The position numbers and the translations under genes were made by a program. The notes beneath the pieces were generated by a model. It was not told the origin of the DNA, made no database searches, and saw only the letters and a program-made list of their open reading frames with translations. DNA of 38,263 bases, taken from a virus. Each line of letters starts with the position of its first letter. Positions within the stretch are counted from its first letter, which is position 1. The DNA is taken from positions 1 through 38,263 of IMG/VR virus record IMGVR_UViG_3300045257_000142, one strand, 5' to 3'. Positions 1 through 38,263 of this stretch are shown piece by piece.

Positions 1-127
1 TAATTTTGGAAAAGTATCAGGAGAACTTGGTCTTCATTGGCTCGACACGCTTGAAATCCGAGTTGAACCAAAGGACTTAAAAGATTCCTTTATAGATTTT
101 TACACTGAGTGCACACGACACAGGATT
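1..127. repeat. 127-bp terminal direct repeat (left copy)
   Basis: Bases 1-127 are identical to bases 38137-38263. The repeat lies inside the terL coding frame, and joining the two ends restores one uninterrupted reading frame. An exact 127-bp overlap is what a de Bruijn assembler run with k=127 leaves on a circular contig. The simplest reading is therefore an assembly overlap of a circular or circularly permuted genome, not a biological terminal repeat. Confidence 0.95.
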
Positions 128-559: not shown

Positions 560-2693
560 CCGTATTACCGACCTAAAAAAGACTGTTGAAGAAGCTCAAG
601 AATACTTCTCTCACAATGTCGAACGATTTAACGAGTTCATGCTTTTTGTCTTTAAGACATCCATGAGCCAAAAAGATGTTGCTGCCTTACAAACAACCGG
701 TAAGCCAACAATAGAATTTAATATACTCGAAGCTTATATTTCAAGATTAAGAGGCGAGTTTGCTACACAGCAACCGGCGCTAAACGTTAGAGCTGCCGAT
801 GGCGTGCCTCTTTCTTCCCTCACTCCAGAATTTGTTCACACACTAAAAGTTATAGAAGGATATTTATCTGCAATTTTATCAGAATCTGCTGATGATATGC
901 TCGCATATAATGTATATACTGATTTGTTGGCTGGTGGATTCTCAGTCGTAAAAGTAATGACAGAATACATTAATGAAATGTCATTTGAGCAAAATATTTG
1001 TTTTACACGTGTCTTTGACCCAACCTTATGTTTTTTTGACCCTCTAGCAAGGGATTCTCATAAAGGAGATGGTCGATATTGTGGTGAACTTTCACCAATG
1101 ACACGTAAAGCGTTCGAGGAGTCATATGGCAAGGATGCCACTCAAAAGATGACCTTTACTAGAGAATTATCTGGGTTTAGTTGGTCATTTAAAAATGAGT
1201 CGGAAGATATAGTATTGGTTTGTGACTTTTATGAAAAGAAATGCAAAAGAGAAAAGATTGTTAAACTTTCAAACGGGCATGTTGTAACAGAAAAGCAATA
1301 CAAAAAATTCATGAAAATATGGGAAGAAGAAGCTCATATTGAGCAGCCTCCAATCCCAGTTGGTGAACCAAGAATGACTACATTAGAAACTATATGTAGG
1401 TATCGCTTCTGTGAATCCATGGTGCTAGAATATGTCGAAACGGATTTTAAGCACCTCCCTTTAGTCTTTGTTGATGGTAATTCTGTAAGTATAACTGAAT
1501 CTGGTTCTACAGCTCAGATGACAAGACCTTATGTATACCACGGTAAAGGTATACAGATGCTGAAGAATTTCGCAGGGCAGAGTTTAGGGAATGAATTAGA
1601 AAATACTATACAGCATAAATTTATTGTTGCCGCAGAATCCATACCAACGCAATACCAATCTGCTTACCAAAACGTACAAAAAGCAGACGTTCTTATTTAT
1701 AATAATTTCCTTGACAGTCGCAGTCCAGATGTACAACTCCCTCCCCCTCGCGAGGTTAACCGTACTCCAATTCCCCCCGAAATTAGTCAGACGTTTAGAA
1801 TGTCAGATGAAATGACACAAGCTATCTTAGGATCATATGATGGGGCTGCTGGAATAAACAGAGACAACATGTCAGGAATTGCATTCTCTAGGTCAGCAAT
1901 ACAAAGCAACACGTCATCAAAACCGTATATTGTAGGATTCATTAAAGCTCTTAATAGAGTTGCGCAAATCATTGTAGATTTGATACCAAAATATTATAGA
2001 ACACCTAGAACACTACCAATTATGAAGCCAGATGGTAAGCGTTCGCATGTAGAGATAAACAAAAAAGGTTCTATCTACATGAATTATGACCCTAACTGTT
2101 TAGAGGTTAAGGTTGAAGCTGGTGTTAACTTTGCAACACAGAAAGAAATAGCCCTCAATACTATAATAAGCCTAATGCAAGCTTCCCCTCTTTTTGGTCA
2201 ATTTATGAACGAGCATGGGCTGCAAATCCTACTAGACAATATAGAGATTAGGGGAATTGAGGGTCTAAAAGAGAAAGCAGTAGAATTTGAACAGCAATTA
2301 GCACAAAATAGACAGCAACAAGAACAACAGCAAGCGCAACAATCTCAAGCGCAAATTGAACAGATGCAACAGCAAGCGCAAATTGAACAACAACGCATAC
2401 AGATTGAAATGGCTCAAGCTCAACGTTCATTACAGACTCCGAGTATTGAGCAGCTTGGCTTAATGTCTATACAAGAAAAAGCTAAATTGGATGCTGCAAA
2501 TGTGGCTCTTAAAGAACGAGATTCAGAAGCTAAATTTATGGAAGTAATGGCCAAGATTCAGATGCAGGGACTAGAATTAGATCAAAAGGCGGCACAGCAG
2601 GATGCTGAAACGGCTCGTGAAGTCATAAAGGATTTAACTGAGATGAGCAACACTTTCGAAAGAATAAATAAGGAGAGACATGATGAAAGGTAA
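534..2693 (+). CDS. Portal protein, P22-like
   Basis: This 719-aa protein would form the dodecameric ring at the head vertex through which DNA is packaged and ejected. Its position directly after terL, its length close to P22 gp1 (about 725 aa), and family-like segments support this: FDPTLCFFDPLARDSHKGD near residues 160-180 and the region around MSGIAFSRSAIQ near 445. The last 150 residues are a Gln/Ala-rich helical tail with long runs of Q, as in the barrel or crown region of P22-type portals. The start overlaps terL by 26 nt. The assignment rests on context and motif resemblance, not on an alignment. Confidence 0.9.
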   Translation: MEVAKRYSDRITDLKKTVEEAQEYFSHNVERFNEFMLFVFKTSMSQKDVAALQTTGKPTIEFNILEAYISRLRGEFATQQPALNVRAADGVPLSSLTPEFVHTLKVIEGYLSAILSESADDMLAYNVYTDLLAGGFSVVKVMTEYINEMSFEQNICFTRVFDPTLCFFDPLARDSHKGDGRYCGELSPMTRKAFEESYGKDATQKMTFTRELSGFSWSFKNESEDIVLVCDFYEKKCKREKIVKLSNGHVVTEKQYKKFMKIWEEEAHIEQPPIPVGEPRMTTLETICRYRFCESMVLEYVETDFKHLPLVFVDGNSVSITESGSTAQMTRPYVYHGKGIQMLKNFAGQSLGNELENTIQHKFIVAAESIPTQYQSAYQNVQKADVLIYNNFLDSRSPDVQLPPPREVNRTPIPPEISQTFRMSDEMTQAILGSYDGAAGINRDNMSGIAFSRSAIQSNTSSKPYIVGFIKALNRVAQIIVDLIPKYYRTPRTLPIMKPDGKRSHVEINKKGSIYMNYDPNCLEVKVEAGVNFATQKEIALNTIISLMQASPLFGQFMNEHGLQILLDNIEIRGIEGLKEKAVEFEQQLAQNRQQQEQQQAQQSQAQIEQMQQQAQIEQQRIQIEMAQAQRSLQTPSIEQLGLMSIQEKAKLDAANVALKERDSEAKFMEVMAKIQMQGLELDQKAAQQDAETAREVIKDLTEMSNTFERINKERHDER

Positions 2694-2868
2694 AAAGAAT
2701 TTTATAAAGGATGCTATAAAAAAACCAGGCGCACTACGTAAAGCGTTGCATGTAAAAAAAGGTGAAGATATATCTGAAGCTAAGCTAGAAAAGGCCGAGA
2801 GAAGCAAGAGCCCGTTGATGCGTCGTAGAGCAAATCTCGCCGAAACTTTGAAACATTTAAAAAAATGA
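2680..2868 (+). CDS. Small basic conserved phage protein
   Basis: A 62-aa, very lysine/arginine-rich protein overlaps the end of the portal gene by 14 nt, with a Shine-Dalgarno sequence (AAGGAGAG) inside the portal tail. The pattern KKPGALRKALHVKKGE followed by a basic RRRANLAETLKHLKK tail is one I recognise from small uncharacterised proteins beside portal genes in other tailed phages. The function is unknown; a nucleic-acid-binding or packaged basic peptide is possible. It starts at MMKG, and either of the two adjacent ATGs could be used. Confidence 0.75.
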   Translation: MMKGKKNFIKDAIKKPGALRKALHVKKGEDISEAKLEKAERSKSPLMRRRANLAETLKHLKK

Positions 2869-2916
2869 TGAAACACTAAAACAAATGATGTACAATATTT
2901 GTTTTGGAGTTTTATT

Positions 2917-3531
2917 ATGTTGTGTGTTGTATGTTGTATTGATATTGGTGATACTCATAAATATAAAAAATATTGTTCTGTAATTTGTAGAAATAAAGCT
3001 GCTTATGCAAAAACTATATCTAATAGTAAGATTTGTAATTTTTGTAATGTGAGTTTTTTAGGGTTTATTAAGCAAAAATTTTGCAGTCATAAGTGTTCTT
3101 ATGACTCTCGTGCTGATGTTATGAATAAATATTATCAATCAAAAAGAAAATATCCAAAGATAGAAGGTTTAAATAGATGTCAGATATATAGAAAGTTTAA
3201 CCCAGCTAAAGGACGAGAAGAATTATCAAAAGATAATATGAAACGAGTTATAGTTATTCAAGCTCTCGGTGGCTGTTGTAAAACATGCGGATATACAGAT
3301 GATATTCGTGCTCTTCAGTTAGATCATATTAATGATGATGGATATGAAGATAGGCGAGGAAAGGGAAAAATTGGGAAAATATATAGATATTATGTTAACA
3401 AACTGGATGAGGCAAAAGATATTTTACAAGTCCTTTGTGCAAATTGCCATGCGATAAAAACAAGTATATCTAGAGAGATCTCAAAAAAGAAAGCGAAAGA
3501 ATATAAGGACAGAAAAAATGCCTCTAATTAA
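2917..3531 (+). CDS. HNH homing endonuclease with zinc ribbons
   Basis: This is a probable free-standing homing endonuclease of 204 aa. The N-terminus has paired CxxC and CxxxC zinc-binding motifs (about residues 3-24 and 40-60). The C-terminal HNH nuclease shows LQLDHINDDG (residues 133-142, with D136 and H137 of the first HNH strand) and QVLCANCHAIK (171-181). I chose ATG 2917 because GGAG at 2906-2909 sits seven bases upstream; an upstream TTG at 2899 stays in frame but has no ribosome site. It interrupts two tiny genes of the portal cluster, and its 3' end overlaps the next gene by 14 nt, as expected of a mobile insertion. Confidence 0.88.
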   Translation: MLCVVCCIDIGDTHKYKKYCSVICRNKAAYAKTISNSKICNFCNVSFLGFIKQKFCSHKCSYDSRADVMNKYYQSKRKYPKIEGLNRCQIYRKFNPAKGREELSKDNMKRVIVIQALGGCCKTCGYTDDIRALQLDHINDDGYEDRRGKGKIGKIYRYYVNKLDEAKDILQVLCANCHAIKTSISREISKKKAKEYKDRKNASN

Positions 3532-4042: not shown

Positions 4043-4765
4043 ATGGATGAACTGAATATGAGCGGAGCTCAGCCGGACCAAATTGAACCGCCTATGCAAC
4101 AACAGAAAATGTTGTCGCAGGACGAGGTCAATTCGCTAGTTGCACGAGAAAAGCAAAATGCGGCCGCCAGAGCTAGACAAGAAGTTGAAAGGGAGTATCA
4201 ACAAAAGGCAATGCAAGCGCAGCAACAGCAGCAAATGCAGAGTCAACAACAAGAGCAACAAAGGATGTCACAAGGCCCCTCTGAAGCCGATGCAGATGCT
4301 ATCTATCAACAAGTTCAAGAACGCTTTAATAAAGAGATGCAAGAACGTCAATTTCAACAAGAAATGGCTAATGTTGCAAATTCTTATCATGCGAAAATGG
4401 ACTATAGTCGAAAATCTTACGATGATTTTGATGAAATAACGGGCAAATTTGATCCAGTAGCTTTCCCACAACTCGTCTACTTAGTTAGCGGTATGGAGAA
4501 TGCAGGGGATATTATTTATGATTTAAGTAAAAACCCTCAAAAACTCGTTACTTTAAATTCATTGGCACAAAGCTCACCTCAGTTTGCACAAGCAGAATTG
4601 TTAAAGTTGTCTCAGTCTATATCGCAAAATAATAATGCGAGAACTGAAGCAGACCAATACTCAACTTCTGCTCCGCTAAATCCATTACAACCTTCCCGAG
4701 TATCTGGGAGCAATGGAAAGCTGACCGTGAGAGACTTAAGAGACATGCCTTGGCTTAAAGGTTAA
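4043..4765 (+). CDS. Scaffolding protein (putative)
   Basis: This 240-aa hydrophilic protein lies directly before the coat gene, the P22 gp8 position. A long Gln/Glu/Arg-rich helical segment (about residues 25-115) with runs of Q predicts an elongated coiled coil, as in scaffolds that guide procapsid assembly and then leave. The C-terminus has basic residues (GSNGKLTVRDLRDMPWLKG), in line with a C-terminal coat-binding patch, though this is inference. The start is preceded by GGAAGG and the structured leader. Assignment is by position and composition; P22 gp8 itself is longer, about 303 aa. Confidence 0.78.
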   Translation: MDELNMSGAQPDQIEPPMQQQKMLSQDEVNSLVAREKQNAAARARQEVEREYQQKAMQAQQQQQMQSQQQEQQRMSQGPSEADADAIYQQVQERFNKEMQERQFQQEMANVANSYHAKMDYSRKSYDDFDEITGKFDPVAFPQLVYLVSGMENAGDIIYDLSKNPQKLVTLNSLAQSSPQFAQAELLKLSQSISQNNNARTEADQYSTSAPLNPLQPSRVSGSNGKLTVRDLRDMPWLKG

Positions 4766-4793
4766 TCTCGTCTTGATGTAGGTAAGTAGATTG

Positions 4794-4816
4794 CTCCTTT
4801 GTTTTAACAAAGGGAG
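4794..4816 (+). promoter_or_regulatory. Hairpin that can mask the coat ribosome-binding site
   Basis: CTCCTTTGT (4794-4802) is complementary to ACAAAGGGAG (4807-4816) apart from one bulged G. The 3' arm contains the AAAGGGAG ribosome site of the coat gene at 4823. No T-run follows, so this is more likely a translational switch or mRNA-stability hairpin than a terminator. Confidence 0.5.
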
Positions 4817-4822
4817 ATTGAA

Positions 4823-6067
4823 ATGCCTACAAATATCTTGCAACAGGTTATTACCTATAATGAATCTAACCTTGCGCTTTTACTTAACTCGTTCTGTTTT
4901 TTAAGCACATCAAACAAAAAGTTTGTTGGCTTTAATGATGCTATCCCAAAAAACTTGGGTGACACTGTATCATTTGATTTGCCACCACGTTTTACCACAA
5001 CGAACTCACTGGTTGTAACATTCCAGCCTGCAGTTCAGCGTGTACAAAACTTAACGGTAGATCAACAAGCTTCAACTGCTTATGAGTTTACTGCCCAACA
5101 ATTTATTTTCAACGTTCGTGACTATATGCCGAAATTCGGTAAATCAGCTACTGCTGAGCTTGGTACACAAGTTGAAGCTAATGTTGCTCAATTAGCTGAG
5201 ACCAATACTTTTAGGTTCTACGGCGATGGAATAAATCCTATTAACAGCTATCTTCAGTTAGCCAACGCACTAAGTTTTTTCCGTAATTTTGGCGCAGTTC
5301 AAACAGATACAAAAGGTTACCTATCAGATTTAACCTTCCCTCTAATTGTTAACTCAGGCTTAAACCAGTTCACGATGGAACGTGGTAACCGAGAAGCAAT
5401 GTCATGGGAAATTGGTGATTTTAGTAAGTGTGAATGGTATCAATCCAATCTGCTTAAAACTCACCTTGCAGGAACAGAAGGAAACGCTGGCTCTACATTG
5501 ACAGTTGTATCAACTACACTAGACGCTAATGGCGCTGTTATTGCTATTACATTTAGCGGAACTAATGCTGCTACTGATGCAAACTCAATTAAAAAGTATG
5601 ACAAGTTCCAATTTAGTGATGGTGTTTCTGGAAAAGCAAATCTTAGATTTTTAACATTCATTGGTCATAAACAGTCACAATCTCCTGTACAGTTTAGAGC
5701 TACAGCTGACGCTGCTTCTACTGGTGGTTCTCAAGTAACGGTAAATATTTATCCTCCGCTACAAGCAAACTCAGGACAAGACCAAAACTTGAACACGCCA
5801 ATCGTAGCAGGTATGCAGGTAACTGTTCTTCCTGACCACAGATGTGGTTTGATTATGTCTGGCAACCCATTGTTCTTAGCTATGCCTAGACTACCTGAAG
5901 AAGTTCCATTCCCAACTTCAGTTGCGATGGATCCTGATTCAGGAGCTAGTATACGTCAGTACTACGGTTCGCTCTTCGGTCAAAACCAACGTGGAATGGT
6001 TCATGACGTTATTTGGGGAAGTACTCTAGTTGACGAATATGCAATGATGGTAGCTTTGCCTATATAA
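4823..6067 (+). CDS. Major capsid (coat) protein, P22 gp5-like
   Basis: This 414-aa protein follows the scaffold gene and is close in length to P22 coat (430 aa). The N-terminal third carries AIPKNLGDTVSFDLPPRF (about residues 40-57), LTVDQQASTAYEFT and FNVRDYMPKFG, a pattern I recognise from P22-type coat proteins of the HK97 fold. A beta-rich insertion with many Gly/Ala/Thr follows in the middle (about residues 215-325). It is preceded by a hairpin that covers its ribosome site and followed by a strong hairpin, which suggests that its expression is set separately. Confidence 0.9.
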   Translation: MPTNILQQVITYNESNLALLLNSFCFLSTSNKKFVGFNDAIPKNLGDTVSFDLPPRFTTTNSLVVTFQPAVQRVQNLTVDQQASTAYEFTAQQFIFNVRDYMPKFGKSATAELGTQVEANVAQLAETNTFRFYGDGINPINSYLQLANALSFFRNFGAVQTDTKGYLSDLTFPLIVNSGLNQFTMERGNREAMSWEIGDFSKCEWYQSNLLKTHLAGTEGNAGSTLTVVSTTLDANGAVIAITFSGTNAATDANSIKKYDKFQFSDGVSGKANLRFLTFIGHKQSQSPVQFRATADAASTGGSQVTVNIYPPLQANSGQDQNLNTPIVAGMQVTVLPDHRCGLIMSGNPLFLAMPRLPEEVPFPTSVAMDPDSGASIRQYYGSLFGQNQRGMVHDVIWGSTLVDEYAMMVALPI

Positions 6068-9241: not shown

Positions 9242-9271
9242 TATAATAACTACTTTAATAGGGGTAGTTAT
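9242..9271 (+). promoter_or_regulatory. Promoter-like box and start-codon-masking hairpin of the second HNH gene
   Basis: TATAAT (9242-9247) is a consensus -10 box without a good -35. ATAACTAC (9246-9253) pairs perfectly over 8 bp with GTAGTTAT (9264-9271). The pairing buries the first two bases of the ATG at 9270, and most of the GGGG ribosome site falls in the loop. In T4, homing endonuclease genes such as I-TevI are silenced by similar hairpins until a late promoter starts inside the stem; the same logic may apply here. Confidence 0.5.
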
Positions 9272-9884
9272 GAGAGAAATGCATAAAAGTTTGGAGAAAG
9301 AGTGCCTTCATTGCAAAGTAAAAATAAGGGTGTATGTATCAGATATTAAAAGGGGAGGAGGCAAATACTGTTCTCCTTCTTGTAGTGGCAAGCATTCTAT
9401 AGAAATTAGACGAAAAAAATTAGAAGGAAGCCCATCAGAAAGATTTTTCAATAATATTATAAAATCTGATGATGATAAAGGATGTTGGATTTGGGTTGGA
9501 CTTGCAAGCAAGCAAGGATACGGAAGAATGACAATAAAAAAGAAGCAAAAATTAGCACATAGATATTCTTGGGAATTTCATTTTGGGGAAATACCAGAAA
9601 AAATGTTTATATGTCATAAATGTGATAATCCACCTTGCGTTAATCCTGCTCATTTGTTTGTAGGAAACAGATCAGATAATGCAAAAGATATGGTTAGTAA
9701 AAATAGAAATAGAGATGATAGAGGCTCTAATCATCCAATGGCAAAATTAAATGAAGAAAAAGTTATTAAAATAAGAGAAAGAATAAATTCTGGAGAAGTT
9801 CAGAAAGATTTAGCGAAAGAATACAATGTTAGCCCTATGACAATAAGCATGATAAAAAGAAGAATTAATTGGAATAATATTTAA
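9270..9884 (+). CDS. HNH endonuclease (HNH_3 type) with C-terminal HTH
   Basis: This 204-aa protein has three parts. An N-terminal zinc ribbon (C12xxC15...C34xxxC38) comes first. An HNH_3-type nuclease follows, with GCWIWVG (71-77), AHRYSWEFHFG (96-106), CHKCDNPPCVNPAHLFVG (115-132) and NRSDNAKDM. A C-terminal helix-turn-helix (160-200, KLNEEKVIKIRERI...YNVSPMTISMIKR) is of the type that gives homing enzymes site specificity. It sits between the gp10-like gene and a small tail gene, and its stop overlaps the next start (TAATG). It is unrelated in sequence to the HNH protein at 2917. Confidence 0.9.
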   Translation: MREMHKSLEKECLHCKVKIRVYVSDIKRGGGKYCSPSCSGKHSIEIRRKKLEGSPSERFFNNIIKSDDDKGCWIWVGLASKQGYGRMTIKKKQKLAHRYSWEFHFGEIPEKMFICHKCDNPPCVNPAHLFVGNRSDNAKDMVSKNRNRDDRGSNHPMAKLNEEKVIKIRERINSGEVQKDLAKEYNVSPMTISMIKRRINWNNI

Positions 9885-24035: not shown

Positions 24036-24111
24036 TGAACTGTCAAGGATTACTTGACCATTCAATTTGTAAGCCATCCTTACAAGTTCAGTTGTACGGA
24101 ATTATCGTACA
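24036..24111. repeat. Nested inverted repeats forming a three-way-junction-like fold
   Basis: TGAACT (24036-24041) pairs with AGTTCA (24085-24090). It encloses GTCAAG/CTTGAC (24042-24047, 24053-24058) and TTGTAAG/CTTACAA (24067-24073, 24079-24085; one base is shared with the outer stem). A third hairpin TGTACG/CGTACA (24093-24098, 24106-24111) follows. All stems are perfect. The structure lies where the rightward and leftward units converge and overlaps the last codons of the minus-strand gene at 24102; it may be the 3' end structure of the leftward mRNA or a protein-binding site. Confidence 0.5.
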
Positions 24112-24344
24112 GGTACAGTTAGACCCTCTATTTTAATTATCTTATCTTTCAAATTGTGATTTTCTATTGTAAGAGTCTTGATCATTAATGTTAATTGATC
24201 AAACAATTTGAGAATCTTCGTTTGATATTGATCTAAAAGCTCTTCATCCCTTCCTATATCTTTAGAACGTCTTTGCATAGTTAATAAACAATTGCTCAAA
24301 TCGTTCCTTTCTTTAAGAAAATCTATTTCAATTTCATCTTTCAT
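24102..24344 (-). CDS. Coiled-coil protein, last gene of the microcin-like cassette
   Basis: This 80-aa, charged, entirely helical protein has heptad-like spacing of Leu and Ile (LLDQYQTKILKLFDQLTLMIKTL). No membrane segment and no known domain. Its start overlaps the stop of the preceding membrane gene by four bases (ATGA), so it is translated together with the cassette. Perhaps it is a soluble partner of the 2-TM protein. Function unknown. Confidence 0.6.
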   Translation of the reverse strand: MKDEIEIDFLKERNDLSNCLLTMQRRSKDIGRDEELLDQYQTKILKLFDQLTLMIKTLTIENHNLKDKIIKIEGLTVPVR

Positions 24345-24628
24345 AAAATATCCAAATATTTCTTTTTATTTTTATCGTATTCTAAAGTTTTTAGTGCCTG
24401 CTCTAGTTCGCTTTTAAAAAAATCAGAAATAGTATTAATTGTCATAGTTGAAACAAGACCAACGATTAAGAAATAACTATATTCTTCGTACATATTATTA
24501 TCAATAAAATACCACAAACCAAATATTACAGCTGCAATAAATAAAAATCTAATTCTAGCGTTTAATTTACTGAAAAATCGTATTCTATCTATTTTATTAA
24601 TAATATTTCTTGTAAGTGGTATCATCAT
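24341..24628 (-). CDS. Two-TM membrane protein, candidate immunity protein
   Basis: This 95-aa protein has two hydrophobic segments (about 27-43, IRFLFIAAVIFGLWYFI, and 51-68, SYFLIVGLVSTMTINTIS), a basic N-terminus and a charged C-terminal tail. Small inner-membrane proteins of this size, placed directly after a microcin precursor, are the usual form of class II microcin immunity proteins. Here the start overlaps the stop of the Gly-rich leader peptide gene (TAATG). A holin reading is possible, since length and topology would also fit; the context favours immunity. Confidence 0.55.
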   Translation of the reverse strand: MMIPLTRNIINKIDRIRFFSKLNARIRFLFIAAVIFGLWYFIDNNMYEEYSYFLIVGLVSTMTINTISDFFKSELEQALKTLEYDKNKKKYLDIL

Positions 24629-24933
24629 TATTTTTTATTCTCTTTCCAAGCGTGATATGCCTCTGAATACATAAATGCAAATGCTGTACCAGTTCCAGCT
24701 ATGCTTCCACCAGCGATGCAACCATAAAGACCGCCTGTTCTTGCTCCATTTACACATCCAAAAACAGCCGCATTACTCGCTAATATTGCAGCCAATGTCC
24801 AGTCAGTATTACTATATGGATCTACTCTTGGTGTAGCAACGTAATGATTGCTGGTATCTACAAACTCACAGGTATAAATGTTACGTACTGCACCAGATAT
24901 GGATTTTAAATATTTATTTTCTAAAATTCTCAT
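24628..24933 (-). CDS. Class II microcin-like precursor peptide
   Basis: This 101-aa protein begins MRILENKYLKSISGA, which matches the N-terminal leader pattern of Gram-negative class II microcins: MRxL/I at the start and a cleavage site of SGG or SGA at residues 13-15 (microcin H47 uses ISGA, colicin V VSGG). The proposed mature part (16-101) holds a hydrophobic Gly/Ala-rich stretch (about 47-88: AAILASNAAVFG, TGGLYGCIAGGSIAGTG) as in colicin V, and three cysteines (22, 60, 72). ATGA overlap with the upstream leader gene and TAATG overlap with the 2-TM gene give one coupled unit. No export ABC transporter gene is in the window. Confidence 0.58.
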   Translation of the reverse strand: MRILENKYLKSISGAVRNIYTCEFVDTSNHYVATPRVDPYSNTDWTLAAILASNAAVFGCVNGARTGGLYGCIAGGSIAGTGTAFAFMYSEAYHAWKENKK

Positions 24934-25187
24934 GCTGTAAACATCTCCGGGTATAGAGATTTCATTACATGTAAATGATATTGGTAAGCCATCATATCCG
25001 ATTGCATGCTTCTAAAGCTTTCACCGGCATCAATTCTTTTTTGAAATTCTGGAGGTAAGCTTCCATCATATTGCATCGTGTATGCAACATATGAATATTC
25101 TTTAAAATTAGATTTAGACTCTTCTGTATATGTCATATTGACAGCGCCAGATACAAACTTGGTTTCTTCTATATTTAGTAAATTCAT
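24930..25187 (-). CDS. Second SGA-leader peptide, microcin-like partner
   Basis: This 85-aa protein begins MNLLNIEETKFVSGAV, and the leader lines up with that of the next gene (ILENKYLKSISGAV), so both may be processed after SGA by the same C39-type protease. The rest (16-85) is polar, Tyr/Met-rich and acidic, without a membrane segment, so on its own it does not look pore-forming. It may be the second peptide of a two-peptide system, or a modified or escort peptide. Ribosome site AAGGATT. Confidence 0.52.
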   Translation of the reverse strand: MNLLNIEETKFVSGAVNMTYTEESKSNFKEYSYVAYTMQYDGSLPPEFQKRIDAGESFRSMQSDMMAYQYHLHVMKSLYPEMFTA

Positions 25188-25268: not shown

Positions 25269-25427
25269 CTATCTTTTAGGTGTTAACTTAATCTGATATA
25301 TCTGTCCATTTCCTGTATCTGCTCTATATGATGCTTCTTTTGTAAAATCAACAGATGAGCACCCAAATAGCCAACATAGTATAAATAAAACCCCCAGCAC
25401 TTCTAGGAATGAATACATGGTTTTCAT
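25269..25427 (-). CDS. Small lipoprotein
   Basis: This 52-aa protein has a signal peptide ending in the lipobox LFGC (Cys23), with Ser at +2, which directs to the outer membrane. The mature chain is only 30 aa (SSVDFTKEASYRADTGNG). The start is ATG 25427, preceded by GGGAG; an upstream in-frame ATG at 25472 would hide the signal peptide. Candidate roles are an o-spanin-like or bacteriocin-release-like lysis lipoprotein, or a superinfection-exclusion lipoprotein; it lies next to a tiny TM peptide. It lacks the Pro-rich body typical of Rz1. Confidence 0.68.
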   Translation of the reverse strand: MKTMYSFLEVLGVLFILCWLFGCSSVDFTKEASYRADTGNGQIYQIKLTPKR

Positions 25428-25513: not shown

Positions 25514-26281
25514 TTATTCACCCATACCAGCTAATTTATCAGCTAGTTTATCTGATTGAGTTTGAATATCTACCACATTATCTTGGTCTGAAAGCATTCC
25601 TTCAACTACATCGCCCATTCTTTGGTCTCCTCTTTCTGCTGCTTCATCTAAAGCAATAGCATTATTCAAGGATATGGAGGAGGGAATCAGTTTTAAGAGA
25701 CGTCTAATGACAGTTTTTTGTGCCATTTGCTCCATATCTGTAACCCATGGACCAGATCCACCACTTCTAGAACGATTTCTTATCCTATTTATGTCTGCCA
25801 TGTTCATAAAATCAAACTGTTTATATCCGTTTTTCATTGTAACAACAGAATAAACCCCAATCATTGGACCCCTTTCAGCTATACTTGGATTGTGTTCTAT
25901 TGCTGGAGAAGTTCCCCTTCTCATGGAAAATTCATCATTTTGATATACACATGCCGCCTCTACAGACGTTATTCTGTCTGAACGATGGCTTAACTCTATC
26001 ATACCTTTATACCCCAACATTAGTGTTGCCTGTGTTCCGTAGGGGACTAAATAGACCATCCCTGAAATCCCAGGCTCTAATCCTAGTTGAGCGCATGACA
26101 TAATGGTACCACAGATAGATTCTACGGTGCATTTATTTAATGCGGAATTCTTTTTGAGCTCACTGTAAGCTAACATTATCAGTCTATCGGAGCACATATG
26201 AATTGGAAGAGCCTTATCTAGATAAGGTTGCATCTCCACTAATCTTTTATAAGCTGGAACTAAAGTTGAATTTATTGTCAT
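25514..26281 (-). CDS. recT: RecT single-strand annealing protein
   Basis: This 255-aa protein anneals complementary single strands during recombination-dependent replication or repair. Typical RecT features in order are CGTIMSCAQLGLEPG (57-71), YLVPYGTQATLMLGYKGMIELSHRSDRI (77-104), the D116-containing QNDEFSMRRG, and IEHNPSIAERGPMIGVYSV. It is the partner of the YqaJ nuclease upstream, from which it is separated by three bases. The ribosome site lies in the motif AACGAAGGACTTTA, which is repeated elsewhere in the window. A slightly acidic tail ends in DKLAGMGE. Confidence 0.93.
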   Translation of the reverse strand: MTINSTLVPAYKRLVEMQPYLDKALPIHMCSDRLIMLAYSELKKNSALNKCTVESICGTIMSCAQLGLEPGISGMVYLVPYGTQATLMLGYKGMIELSHRSDRITSVEAACVYQNDEFSMRRGTSPAIEHNPSIAERGPMIGVYSVVTMKNGYKQFDFMNMADINRIRNRSRSGGSGPWVTDMEQMAQKTVIRRLLKLIPSSISLNNAIALDEAAERGDQRMGDVVEGMLSDQDNVVDIQTQSDKLADKLAGMGE

Positions 26282-26284
26282 TTT

Positions 26285-27208
26285 TTAAAGTCCTTCGTTA
26301 AGTTGTTTTATTACAAATCTTCTTTGAGAAGAGCATGCTTTTGTATATTTTTTGTAAAGCTGTTCGTTCTCTTTTTTAAATGCAGATGCATCAAATCTGC
26401 TGGTTTCTCTTGTCTGTTTCCAAGTAGCTACTATTTTACCAGATGTAGATAGTAATGTATCTTTTTGACCCATGTATATTTTTATCTTATCTTCTATCTT
26501 TTTCTTCATATCTTCAGATTCTTTAATTGTTACTCTTAATTGTTCTAATTTGTCTATATCTTCTTGCATATCACCATTTGCAATAACTGGTTCTTGGATT
26601 GACTCATAGCCATATAAACTTAAAACTTCTTGTCCTGTTGAAGCATCAGGCGCAATTTCTGTTTTAACGGCGTTCCAGAACTTTTCATATTTCTTTATCA
26701 TCATTCCTTCAAGCTTCATATTTCTTTCAATAACATAATGCCTAAAATCAGAACCTCTTATAAGTACTGCAACATAAGCTCTTTTTGTATCTGTGACTAA
26801 CATATAATGAGACACCTGAAGAAGATAATGATCAGGTATTTTATTTTCACCTTGTTCCCCCCACCCTAATTCACTGGAAGAAGTCTTTGCTTCAAATATT
26901 GCATCATCTCCTATTCTCCCATCAATATTTCCTGCTATATATGGTATGGTTGGATGTTTTAATAAATTTCCATCTAATTTCACACTAAGATTTGTCTCAT
27001 GTTCAAACCATTCTCTCACTGCTGATTCAAGAAAGTTTCCGGCTTTTACATGAGGATTATCAGATATGTCTTTAGGTATTCTTTGTCTAATTTTTTCTTG
27101 CCATAACTCTATTATATTTCCCCATTTGGAGACACCACAAATTACAGCAGAATCAGAACCACAAATATAATTCAAACGCTCTTCTAGTTGTAAAGAAGTT
27201 AAACTCAT
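26285..27208 (-). CDS. YqaJ-family viral exonuclease
   Basis: This 307-aa protein has a YqaJ-like core: GVSKWGNIIELWQEKI (25-40), GNFLESAVREWFEHET (58-72) with E61, GNIDGRI (93-99) with D96, FEAKTS (105-110) with E106 and K108 of the D-ExK active site, and LLQVSHYM (129-136) with Q131. It would resect double-strand ends to give the 3' strands that RecT anneals, a Red-like pair. A helical tail (240-307) may touch RecT. The start overlaps the stop of the upstream 56-aa gene by three bases. Confidence 0.93.
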   Translation of the reverse strand: MSLTSLQLEERLNYICGSDSAVICGVSKWGNIIELWQEKIRQRIPKDISDNPHVKAGNFLESAVREWFEHETNLSVKLDGNLLKHPTIPYIAGNIDGRIGDDAIFEAKTSSSELGWGEQGENKIPDHYLLQVSHYMLVTDTKRAYVAVLIRGSDFRHYVIERNMKLEGMMIKKYEKFWNAVKTEIAPDASTGQEVLSLYGYESIQEPVIANGDMQEDIDKLEQLRVTIKESEDMKKKIEDKIKIYMGQKDTLLSTSGKIVATWKQTRETSRFDASAFKKENEQLYKKYTKACSSQRRFVIKQLNEGL

Positions 27209-27715: not shown

Positions 27716-27805
27716 CACTTTTTTTACTTATTTATTTTTTTTATTTCTGTTGTTTATACTCAATAAGTGTAGTAACATTCCTCAATAACTATTAAAGAGG
27801 TGTAT

Positions 27806-27997
27806 ATGATTGAAGAAAGAAAGGTAACGACCATGACAATTAGACTCAGCATGGAAGATTATGCTCGTGTTAAAAGAGTGTGTAATAGAGACGAGATAAA
27901 GCCTGCTGTCTTTGCTTATGAAAGACTCATGGACGGTATAAACGACCTTATTAAGAAACAAGAGAAAGAAGGCTATCAATGTATGAACTTGTTGTGA
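27806..27997 (+). CDS. Ribbon-helix-helix type regulator (putative)
   Basis: This 63-aa protein has a basic strand-like N-terminus (VTTMTIRLSMEDYARVKRVC, residues 7-26) followed by two helices, the layout of Arc/MetJ ribbon-helix-helix repressors. The start is ATG 27806, with GAGG five bases upstream; the in-frame GTG at 27800 lies in that site. It is divergent from the leftward operon, with direct repeats CTCAATAA at 27759 and 27781 (22 bp apart) in the control region that could be its operator. It overlaps the opposite-strand gene at 27976 by 22 nt. Confidence 0.6.
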   Translation: MIEERKVTTMTIRLSMEDYARVKRVCNRDEIKPAVFAYERLMDGINDLIKKQEKEGYQCMNLL

Positions 27998-30281: not shown

Positions 30282-30539
30282 ATGATTAAGACTATAATGG
30301 ATTGGGGAAAGAAAGGCGTACATCGACTCGCACATAACAAAACATTGGATAGTTTAAATAATCATGAGATTGGACCGGAAGAGGCAGATTTACTATACGA
30401 GGATATATTCTTCAAGCAAATAAGGATTATACAAAGGCAACATAAGACAGCGGAGTTAGAGAAAAAGAAGAAAATAGAAGCGAAAGAAACCTTTCGTTTC
30501 AAATTAAGTAATATAACCAAAAAACAGGAGAAACAATGA
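30282..30539 (+). CDS. Small basic helical early protein
   Basis: This 85-aa protein is rich in Lys and Glu, with a helical charged C-terminal half (TAELEKKKKIEAKETFRFKLSN). AAGGAAAG precedes the start. Its stop overlaps the next gene (ATGA). No known domain; its place after the origin suggests an accessory role in replication or host take-over. Confidence 0.55.
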   Translation: MIKTIMDWGKKGVHRLAHNKTLDSLNNHEIGPEEADLLYEDIFFKQIRIIQRQHKTAELEKKKKIEAKETFRFKLSNITKKQEKQ

Positions 30540-30700
30540 AAACATTATCAAATGAACTTACTTGCTCAATATCAGGCGGACAAAACGAGGAAGTGCAATA
30601 CTATGGAAGATATATCGTAGAAAACATGGAGGACGGGAAGGTTAGGATGATTATGTGTTTGGTTGCTGAGGGGGATCTTAAAGCGCCAAAAGCTTATTAA
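30536..30700 (+). CDS. 54-aa early protein
   Basis: This short frame starts MKTLSNELTCSISGGQNEEV and ends in EGDLKAPKAY. A perfect AGGAG lies five bases upstream and the start overlaps the previous stop. It has alternating charged and hydrophobic residues as in a small beta-sheet protein. Function unknown. Confidence 0.6.
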   Translation: MKTLSNELTCSISGGQNEEVQYYGRYIVENMEDGKVRMIMCLVAEGDLKAPKAY

Positions 30701-34146: not shown

Positions 34147-34308
34147 ATGACTGAAGATAATCTGGCTCAGGCCTTGGTTCATATTGGAAAAGCTTTAGAT
34201 AGGCTTGAAGAGAAATATGAAACTATAACAACTCTTAAATTACAGGTTGCATCATTGATGCAAGACATTAAAAACTTAGAAGAATATATTAAAACCCAGG
34301 AGTACTGA
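34147..34308 (+). CDS. 53-aa coiled-coil protein
   Basis: This short helical frame (MTEDNLAQALVHIGKALDRL...) has an ATG within the fourth junction cassette and a stop in the fifth, where it overlaps the sigma-like gene (TGATG). It resembles the 52-aa protein at 33381 in size and heptad layout; the two may be distant duplicates. Confidence 0.6.
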   Translation: MTEDNLAQALVHIGKALDRLEEKYETITTLKLQVASLMQDIKNLEEYIKTQEY

Positions 34309-34610
34309 TGTTATATGGGATAGAAAGATTTTTTGATGTTTTTAACAAACAGGCGATTTATCTTAATAGTATACCAACTGACAATCAAATGTCATTCATA
34401 TTACCTATTACAACAGACGAAATTAGACTTTTAAAATTAAGATTCAATCAGGATGGTACTTATAAAGATTCTCTTCGATCTATAGGAAAAGAATATGGAG
34501 TTACCGGAGAAAGAATAAGGCAGAGAATAGAAAAAGCATTAAGAAAACTACGACAACCATCCAGAAGTGAAGATTTAATAGGGTTTTTAAATAAAGAAAA
34601 GGAGTGTTGA
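34308..34610 (+). CDS. Sigma-70 region 4-like protein
   Basis: This 100-aa protein is nearly a stand-alone sigma region 4. Residues 36-94 (DEIRLLKLRFNQDG, then LRSIGKEYGVTGERIRQ, EKALRKLRQPSRSEDLIGFL) match the end of RpoD-type sigma factors closely, including the RKLRxPSRSE signature. In the recognition helix, the equivalents of E. coli sigma-70 E585, R588 and Q589 (here E68, R71, Q72) are kept and R584 is Gly67. There is no region 2 or 3, so it cannot melt promoters alone; it may replace or bridge region 4 at -35 or bind the beta-flap. It is coupled to the next gene. Confidence 0.88.
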   Translation: MLYGIERFFDVFNKQAIYLNSIPTDNQMSFILPITTDEIRLLKLRFNQDGTYKDSLRSIGKEYGVTGERIRQRIEKALRKLRQPSRSEDLIGFLNKEKEC

Positions 34611-35374
34611 TGTCTAATGAAATGAGCCTATTAAGCATTGTCGCAGAGGCAGAAGAGCAACTTTATAAGAACATGGGGTCTCAACCTTCCATAGACGATT
34701 TGGCTAGATATATATGGACATCCAAGAGAGAGCTGCAGATATTTCTTATGAGATATAAAGATGAGGCCCCTCTAAAGGATATAGGCTTGGCATTTGATAT
34801 AGGTCCAGACAGAGTTACTCAATTGCTGCATAAATTTTCACATAACTTATTGCAATTTTGTTGCAGAATAAAAAATGATGTTGTGGAAAAAAAATATATT
34901 CCTTTGGGTGGGATAGACGGCCCATTAGATACAAAAGAACATCTCCTGGAGAGAAAAATAAAAAGTTTCACCGAAAGAGTTTCAAAGCTTAGGGCTTTGT
35001 TAGTAAAGATGGAAGAAAAAAACTACAAACTGCATGTGGAATTATCAGATTCAACAGAAGAATTTAATGAGCTTAGCTCTGAATTGATTACCATAAAGAA
35101 TTGTTTTTCTCGTTTGTTTGAAAAAAAAGAAGATGCGAATGTTTCTATTTTTGATAAAGAAATAGATGAATGCGAATTCACAACCAGAGTAAAAAATGGT
35201 TTGCGTGGTGAACAAGTAGGAACAGTAGGTCAGTTAGTTAAAGTAAAAGAGAAGGATCTATTTAAGATTCCCGGCATAGGAAAGAAGTATGTAAGGCAAA
35301 TAAAAGCATTTTTAAATAAAAATGATCTTAAATTAGGAATGGATATGGAAGATGGAAGAGCAGATGAAGAATGA
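34610..35374 (+). CDS. Sigma-like / RNA polymerase alpha-CTD-like fusion protein
   Basis: This 254-aa protein has three parts. The first (about 5-85: EAEEQLYKNMGSQPSIDDLARYIW, then LKDIGLAFDIGPDRVTQLL) is sigma region 3/4-like. The second (105-170) is a coiled coil. The third (181-245, FDKEIDECEFTTRVKNGLRG, LVKVKEKDLFKIPGIGKKYV, IKAFLNKNDLKLGM) follows E. coli alpha-CTD over its whole length. R193, N196, G224 and K226 line up with the DNA-contact residues R265, N268, G296 and K298. No other phage protein with this fusion is known to me. The start is ATG 34610 in the last junction cassette. Confidence 0.85.
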   Translation: MSNEMSLLSIVAEAEEQLYKNMGSQPSIDDLARYIWTSKRELQIFLMRYKDEAPLKDIGLAFDIGPDRVTQLLHKFSHNLLQFCCRIKNDVVEKKYIPLGGIDGPLDTKEHLLERKIKSFTERVSKLRALLVKMEEKNYKLHVELSDSTEEFNELSSELITIKNCFSRLFEKKEDANVSIFDKEIDECEFTTRVKNGLRGEQVGTVGQLVKVKEKDLFKIPGIGKKYVRQIKAFLNKNDLKLGMDMEDGRADEE

Positions 35375-37136: not shown

Positions 37137-38263
37137 AGGTTGATATAGAACGAGAAACCTTAGTTGCAGAGCTTCAGGGAAGTCTACTAGAGTTCTGTAA
37201 AGTATTTTACCCTCTCCTCACTGGACGAGATTTTATTATATCTGTACCTATTGGGAGAGAACCACATGCGGTCACGATATCACGGGCTCTTACGAGAGCT
37301 GCCAGGCTTCAAATACCTTCGCAGAGACTTATTATCAACGTCCCACCCGGACATGGTAAGTCAACCTTCCTATGTATGTGGGTGGCTTGGACTCTTTCTA
37401 AGTATCCTGACTCTCGTTATCTTTATATCTCATATTCTAAATCATTGGCCGCCAAGCATACTGAGACTATTAAACGTATTATTGGCCTTCGTCATTACAA
37501 GTATCTATTCGATGTATCTATTCGATGGGATAGTAAGGCGAAGGAATTCTTCCAGACTACTCACGGGGGTTCTATTGCTGCTTTTGGTTCAGCTGGTGCT
37601 ATCGTGGGACAGGATGGTGGCTTGCCTGGCTTAGACCGATTCTCTGGGGCCGTAATTATGGATGATAGTCATAAGATAGACGAGGCTCATTCAAATACAA
37701 TTCGTGAAGGTGTTATTGAGAACTATCGTGAAACAATCCAGCAGCGTGCTCGCGGCGTTAATGTACCCTACATTTATATTGGTCAGCGTGTACATGAGGC
37801 TGACTTAGCCGCGTACCTTATTGATGGTAAGGATGGATACGAATGGGAGAAGGTTATATTACAAAGCATTGACTCACTTGGTAATGCATTATATCCAGAA
37901 GCTTTTCCATTAGAATCATTGCTCATCAAACAAGACAAAGACCCCTACGTTTTCGCAAGCCAGTTTCAACAGAATCCCATACCTGCCGGAGGTGGATTAT
38001 TTAAACCAGATTGGTTCATTACCTTAGATGAAGAACCAGAGATGTTAATTACATTTATTACATGTGACACAGCCGAGACCGATAAAAATTGGAACGATTC
38101 TACGGTGTTCTCTTTTTGGGGAGTTTACCAGATAACTAATTTTGGAAAAGTATCAGGAGAACTTGGTCTTCATTGGCTCGACACGCTTGAAATCCGAGTT
38201 GAACCAAAGGACTTAAAAGATTCCTTTATAGATTTTTACACTGAGTGCACACGACACAGGATT
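37133..38263 (+). CDS. terL: Terminase large subunit, N-terminal part (runs on into 2-559)
   Basis: These 377 codons open at the right edge continue at base 128 of the window. Walker A VPPGHGKST (70-78), Walker B AVIMDD (173-178) and the IYIGQRV coupling segment (214-220) form the ATPase. CDTAET (311-316, D312) opens the RNase H-like nuclease. GAGGGG lies upstream and the start overlaps the previous stop (ATGA). It is of the P22/Sf6-like headful or related type, but the packaging mode cannot be settled from sequence alone. Joined, the protein is 520 aa. Confidence 0.95.
   Translation, partial: MKVDIERETLVAELQGSLLEFCKVFYPLLTGRDFIISVPIGREPHAVTISRALTRAARLQIPSQRLIINVPPGHGKSTFLCMWVAWTLSKYPDSRYLYISYSKSLAAKHTETIKRIIGLRHYKYLFDVSIRWDSKAKEFFQTTHGGSIAAFGSAGAIVGQDGGLPGLDRFSGAVIMDDSHKIDEAHSNTIREGVIENYRETIQQRARGVNVPYIYIGQRVHEADLAAYLIDGKDGYEWEKVILQSIDSLGNALYPEAFPLESLLIKQDKDPYVFASQFQQNPIPAGGGLFKPDWFITLDEEPEMLITFITCDTAETDKNWNDSTVFSFWGVYQITNFGKVSGELGLHWLDTLEIRVEPKDLKDSFIDFYTECTRHRI
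38137..38263. repeat. 127-bp terminal direct repeat (right copy)
   Basis: Identical to bases 1-127 and inside terL; see the left copy. Removing one copy gives a 38,136-bp circle. Confidence 0.95.

Follow-up and report, generated by a model that had tools for sequence, protein, structure and literature searches.

The genome of a phage (IMG/VR record IMGVR_UViG_3300045257_000142; the whole virus record of 38,263 bases is here called the window) encodes three small peptides, pepA, pepB and pepC, whose N-terminal leaders strongly resemble, beyond chance, the double-glycine-type leaders cut by C39-domain transporters. Export of these peptides by a C39 system of the host is well supported by their sequences. 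The best reading of the ensemble, to which we give about an even chance, is an exporter-less class II microcin-like module that would use the colicin V-type exporter of the host. More tentatively, and with slightly less than even confidence, we propose a whole clade of non-integrating Legionellales phages whose peptides would share only a host export address and be released via host secretion, no exporter being brought along.

If this is true, phages can use host type I secretion by carrying cargo alone, and from infected cells that are still alive they direct a system of bacteriocins or communication that works outside the cell prior to lysis. The named peptides would be testable candidates for studying how phages influence the rivalry of infected with uninfected cells, and microcin-like peptides would be extended to phages of amoeba-associated bacteria. 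The analysis also suggests a rule for genome mining, i.e. running a host-trained leader matrix over phage ORFs, which may reveal many more such peptides.

Peptide genes and leader statistics

Four ORFs on the minus strand (24102-25187) form a translationally coupled operon with overlaps of 4, 1 and 4 nt, and their coordinates confirm the place at which an earlier, sequence-only reading had put a microcin-like operon. The first gene, pepA (24930..25187, minus strand), specifies an 85-aa precursor with the leader MNLLNIEETKFVSGA (FVSGA type) and a 70-aa mature part; the second, pepB (24628..24933, minus strand), a 101-aa precursor with the leader MRILENKYLKSISGA (ISGA type) and an 86-aa Gly/Ala-rich mature part. 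They are followed by TM2 (24341..24628, minus strand), a two-helix small membrane protein of 95 aa (hydrophobic segments 24-42 and 53-71) and candidate immunity protein, and by the last gene of the operon, for a coiled-coil-like protein of 80 aa (24102..24344, minus strand), which shares a 4-nt overlap with TM2. The core of pepB carries Gly at every fourth residue (59-63-67-71-75), a Gly-zipper with GxxxG present, and two cysteines (Cys60 and Cys72), both conserved. Mature pepA looks soluble, with no GxxxG and no obvious membrane-active sequence. C-termini such as YHAWKENKK are without the Gly/Ser-rich siderophore motif of class IIb microcins.

The minus-strand gene order is yqaJ, recT, a 52-aa putative lipoprotein, pepA, pepB, TM2 and the coil protein. 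The YqaJ/RecE-like exonuclease (26285..27208, minus strand; PF09588, E 6e-24) served as anchor for finding relatives, and the RecT annealing protein (25514..26281, minus strand; Pfam PF03837, E 6e-47) as genomic anchor upstream of the operon. The lipoprotein gene (25269..25427, minus strand), between recT and pepA, has an ATG start and a lipobox-like LFGC; similar small lipoprotein genes occupy the same place in the related contigs L002, L010, L011, L012 and L015. The third peptide, pepC (30536..30700, plus strand), was missed by the sequence-only reading, so that the peptide set is larger than noted there. It is a 54-aa precursor with the leader MKTLSNELTCSISGG (ISGG type) and a 39-aa mature part, shorter than the usual class II microcin core, and its neighbours are replication genes, away from any membrane protein.

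Leaders were scored with a matrix of 12 positions (-13 to -2), trained on 19 Legionellales leaders and on no phage sequence; the training peptides lie beside C39 exporters or were found by PF10439, and were picked by eye. Among the 117 ATG ORFs of the window, the matrix places pepB (13.1), pepC (11.0) and pepA (9.2) first, the fourth ORF scoring 3.6, so that both of the coupled genes for which matching SGA leaders had been claimed stand in the top three. In 200 Markov shuffles of the window a third-best score of at least 5 never occurred (0/200; maximum 3.7), and a best score of at least 9 occurred in 2/200. Control DNA of 340,646 bases (five P22-like phages and two Legionellales regions) yielded a single ORF among 1,227 with a score of at least 9, and this one was without Gly at -2. 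In the rest of the relatives' contigs (12 stretches), no ORF scored 5 or more. Because the three peptides rank first and no shuffle matches the set of three, the leaders are not a product of chance. Leaders of this kind are short and degenerate, and no curated family model matched, which would fit an accidental likeness of short N-termini to double-glycine leaders; set against the shuffles, the one control ORF in 1,227 and the retention of the leaders at fixed positions in related phages, such an accident is very hard to credit. The model TIGR01847 had no match in the window genome (control genomes: six with a match, one over cut-off).

All 23 leader peptides identified here (22 distinct) have Gly at -2 and Gly, Ala or Ser at -1. 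The Ser variant occurs in the pepA leader of L002, which ends in GS, likewise a C39 cleavage type. The pepA and pepB leaders of the window end in GA and that of pepC in GG, in agreement with the signal of class II microcins and with the GG or GA type described for the C39 cleavage site (PMC10233263). Identity among homologues is higher in the leader than in the body for pepC (0.42 vs 0.28) and pepB (0.46 vs 0.37), with no excess for pepA (0.40 vs 0.39).

Conservation in related phages

A YqaJ scan gave eight loci, six of them on contigs new to the set; scans with pepA, pepB and RecT added L002 and L005, and a scan with pepC added L006 and L007. Leader peptides are encoded downstream of recT in all eight contigs that cover this stretch (window included), pepA in seven and pepB in seven, and the homologues keep the leader similarity on which the sequence-only reading depended. 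A TM2 homologue of 60-97 aa comes after pepB in 7/7 contigs; most have one or two hydrophobic segments, that of L002 being below threshold, and L013 has a short coil gene that separates pepB from the TM2 homologue. Adjacent pepA and pepB with a 4-nt overlap were found in the window and L002, while a third ORF intervenes in L010 and L011; the start codon of pepA is uncertain in L013 and GTG in L015. At the same site downstream of recT, L014 encodes a different peptide, MIELNVSEVEQVSGG followed by a hydrophobic helix, and recognisable homologues of pepA, pepB and pepC are absent from this contig, as if the cargo had been swapped and the export address kept. Two further ORFs were observed near these sites. 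One in L014 (12225-12392, plus strand), whose cleavage site is degenerate (SLGT) and whose hydrophobic helix is similar, is a possible paralogue of the adjacent leader peptide; the other, in L012 (12037-12201, plus strand), lies right before pepA, ends in KSRLETISGGAGYERDMAGIL and is possibly an extra or degraded leader peptide.

The pepC gene is kept in 8/9 contigs that cover the stretch from the replication gene to the VRR-NUC gene (present in the window, L005, L006, L007, L010, L011, L012 and L015; absent from L013). The L006 and L007 sequences are identical, and the homologues in L012 and L015 were recognised by their place and a weaker leader (YGG, VGG).

Where compared, the terminases of these phages are 80-94% identical, but pepA and pepB are down to about 25-40%; the mature parts of the pepA, pepB and pepC homologues share roughly 25-40%. 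Compared with L002, the 91% relative, pepA has a dN/dS of 0.046 and pepB one of 0.037 (RecT 0.065, YqaJ 0.09); both are real, constrained proteins under purifying selection as strong as that on RecT. Conserved leaders with diverging mature parts, in a phage without its own exporter, could also be expected of decoys that occupy or jam the host exporter, leaving the host's own GG-leader bacteriocins or signals unsecreted during infection. Such a decoy has, however, no need of a mature part of 70-86 aa conserved at these dN/dS values, and a membrane protein partner would be unexpected; we regard this explanation as improbable.

Searches of family models returned nothing significant for pepA, pepB and the coil protein in Pfam, PHROGs, NCBIfam and PADLOC; for pepC there was no Pfam match up to E 1 and nothing significant in PADLOC. 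Neither pepA nor pepB has a sequence family match to any microcin, and tblastn gave no match of the two to annotated phages, nor of pepB and two replication proteins to plasmids. Matches of a sequence search of solved structures were due to chance, as were, in our judgement, the hits of pepA and pepB profiles in the 143 genomes of Legionellales, which had best E values of 0.05 and 0.004 and lay for the most part within longer ORFs. TM2 has a weak match to DUF2628 (E 5e-4, under cut-off); its weak match to a toxin subunit is surely chance. AlphaFold2 modelled pepB as one long helix (45-98) at low confidence (mean pLDDT 62.5), a second model was likewise of low confidence (61.0), and Foldseek of the pepA model gave no match at E <= 0.001.

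These searches bear on the possibility that pepB or TM2 is a holin or another lysis or virion component and the resemblance of the leader incidental. The window proteins scanned included no recognisable holin or endolysin, a long helix as predicted for pepB would suit such a role, and the neighbouring lipoprotein has a sub-threshold spanin match in PHROGs (E 0.48). Against this, up to E 1 neither pepA nor pepB hits a PHROG for a holin, spanin, endolysin or structural protein, the virion and lysis families among which, as the sequence-only reading had warned, their homologues might have fallen. The leader matrix statistics and the conserved SGA/SGG sites likewise argue against it, as do the position of the operon beside recT/yqaJ, on the other strand from the virion genes, and the presence of another leader peptide, pepC, elsewhere in the genome. 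A lysis or virion role is accordingly even a little less probable than the decoy.

Exporters, host and comparison with known systems

The C39 domain (PF03412) was detected in none of the 10 phage records, several of which are fragments (control positive in 8/14 genomes), and the same holds for the tyrosine integrase (PF00589; control 14/14), in keeping with the earlier remarks that neither a transporter nor an integrase is encoded. The search for host C39 transporters that had been recommended was more productive: a C39 domain is present in 101/143 genomes of the Legionellales, in 99 of them over cut-off, which makes this a plausible host order. When bacterial genomes were scanned with the terminase, a single relative (63% identity) came up, on a contig of 5.9 kb in a MAG named uncultured Legionella sp.; in this MAG an adaptor gene overlaps the gene of a C39 transporter in which Cys, His and Asp are all in place. 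Portal relatives at 40-53% identity occur in 3/143 Legionellales genomes, one within a 3.3-Mb contig, and a sample of 369 gammaproteobacterial genomes contained five other genomes with portal matches, at 21-25%. Related prophage-like regions in two Legionellales genomes (G138, G140) had no leader peptides; the trait thus belongs to the clade of the window, and the host link consists of more distant relatives and one binned contig. On this evidence the phage host is probably a relative of Legionella.

Genes for GG-leader peptides adjoin several Legionellales C39 exporters. PF10439 gave weak matches in 14 of the 143 genomes and none over cut-off, and GG-leader ORFs were recovered at 7 of these loci; of 31 C39 loci, 13 (L022 included) agreed with a strict pattern for the C39 triad. 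Many exporter-linked leaders of Legionellales (L065-L084, L087-L098) possess a conserved N-terminal extension of the type ERVxAYxLAxxI. The phage leaders lack this ERVxAYxLAxx extension, which makes the assignment of a cognate exporter tentative. A colicin V-type T1SS (LB1SS), whose ABC transporter has a C39 domain, has been described in Legionella (PMC6959600); this bacterial system, absent from the phage, is the likely export machine for the phage peptides.

In the microcin-like reading, which we prefer, pepA, pepB and, separately, pepC would be made with 15-residue double-glycine-type leaders addressed to the C39 T1SS of the host, whose ABC transporter would cut after GA or GG, and the mature peptides would leave via the adaptor and TolC. 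The glycine zipper and two Cys suggest that pepB would be a microcin-like membrane-active peptide, with pepA as partner peptide, and TM2 would be the immunity protein shielding the infected or carrier cell. The pay-off would be that the carrier cell outcompetes uninfected kin during a non-integrated carrier state, and it is this state that would make a bacteriocin profitable. We infer host identity, actual export, toxicity, immunity and timing alike, the toxin and immunity steps from the anatomy of the operon (Gly ladder, two Cys, linked membrane protein, overlapping ORFs). Against this reading, a bacteriocin makes less sense for a purely lytic phage, and a ParA-type ATPase occurs in 1/10 records.

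Alternatively, the peptides may be exported by the host C39 system and not be bacteriocins, acting as a surface coat or modification or as signals, for instance in superinfection exclusion or in phage-phage or host-density sensing, with TM2 and the lipoprotein as envelope partners instead of immunity factors. The leader and export evidence fits this equally, mature pepA does not look membrane-active, pepC lies among replication genes wherever it is kept, and small proteins with a GG motif control biofilm in Synechococcus (PMC4997328). However, the succession of a glycine-zipper peptide and TM2 in every contig with pepB resembles a toxin with its immunity protein, and at 39-86 aa the mature parts exceed what one would expect of a signal. 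Surface or signalling roles are thus a serious rival, above all for pepC, and on the whole unlikely without being negligible.

The microcin-like reading invites comparison with several known systems. Class IIb two-peptide bacteriocins of lactic acid bacteria combine two adjacent GG-leader peptide genes with one membrane protein and carry GxxxG motifs. The phage operon shares the adjacent leader-peptide genes, the single membrane protein and, in pepB, the GxxxG repeats, but mature pepA is without GxxxG and the carrier is a Gram-negative phage. SPbeta is an integrated Gram-positive prophage with its own modification genes and SunT transporter, the latter serving as exporter for sublancin and its type of leader. 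By contrast, the phage peptides look unmodified, and the setting is Gram-negative, with neither exporter nor tyrosine integrase in the 10 records. What the two have in common is a bacteriocin and immunity (SunA/SunI/SunT in the Bacillus prophage, both putative here) on a phage. Sublancin with its immunity on SPbeta (PMC6391423) takes away the novelty that the sequence-only reading had seen in a phage-borne bacteriocin with immunity, while the microcin-like traits it had described, i.e. the leaders, the Gly/Ala-rich core and the adjacent small membrane protein, stand.

Class II microcins are described as having a signal of 15-18 aa ending in GG or GA, a core of about 5-10 kDa, an adjacent immunity protein of 51-216 aa, usually with TM helices, PCAT (C39) and MFP export genes in the producer genome, and antibacterial activity (PMC10233263, PMC9746304). 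The mature lengths of pepA (70 aa) and pepB (86 aa) agree with this core size. Microcin V (CvaC/Cvi with CvaAB-TolC), as presented in the same sources, resembles the phage module in its 15-residue leader ending in GA/GG, its Gly-rich core without post-translational enzymes, and a small adjacent membrane protein with overlapping ORFs (PMC10233263, PMC9746304). The phage module differs in that it sits in a phage with no exporter genes there, has no sequence match, and comprises two leader peptides per operon and a third elsewhere. Signal and core size agree with the definition, TM2 is a candidate for the immunity protein, and export genes are missing from the phage; we therefore call the module microcin-like and do not file it as a microcin.

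The gonococcal nap island (NapA-C, NapI, NapP, NapF) likewise has several GG-leader peptides and a putative immunity protein, but it is chromosomal, has its own C39 peptidase and export channel, and its peptides act in autolysis; NapC shares 68.9% identity with a protein of an inovirus (PMC11798529). Besides the sublancin and inovirus/NapC precedents, searches of open-access literature brought up no report of an exporter-less double-glycine peptide set in a phage. Phage-borne bacteriocins as such are not new. What makes this case unusual is the number of peptides, their Gram-negative background and the lack of an exporter; to judge from the literature searched, the novelty lies in a clade of phages that carry several peptides for C39 export without an exporter of their own.

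Genome layout and further features

Because the window ends in a direct terminal repeat of 127 bp (left copy 1..127, right copy 38137-38263; no strand assigned), the genome is complete and circular, and the large terminase gene runs across both ends. A P22-like virion module is recognisable from portal (phrog_156), coat, scaffold, head closure and DNA ejection matches. Two HNH endonuclease genes within this module (2899-3531 and 9270-9884, plus strand) are probably homing endonucleases.

In L005 the large terminase ORF (815-3448, minus strand; 877 aa) carries a long intein-like insertion that is missing in the relatives, with an HNH-like ORF (1940-2662) opposite to it. L014, the one record with the ParA-type ATPase family (PF13614, E 1e-21), encodes it together with a ParG-like protein (PF09274 over cut-off) at 4214-5099 on the minus strand, and this partition pair may indicate a plasmid-like prophage in L014. 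A small ribbon-helix-helix-like protein of the window (27800-27997, plus strand), with homologues in several relatives and without a clear Pfam match, is a possible repressor or partition partner. Finally, a 256-aa protein (34604-35374, plus strand) joins a sigma-70 region 4-like part (E 3e-4) to the C-terminal domain of an RNA polymerase alpha subunit (PF03118, E 3e-12). It may be a transcription factor of uncommon design, supplied by the phage; the gene just ahead of it (34308-34610) encodes another sigma region 4-like protein.
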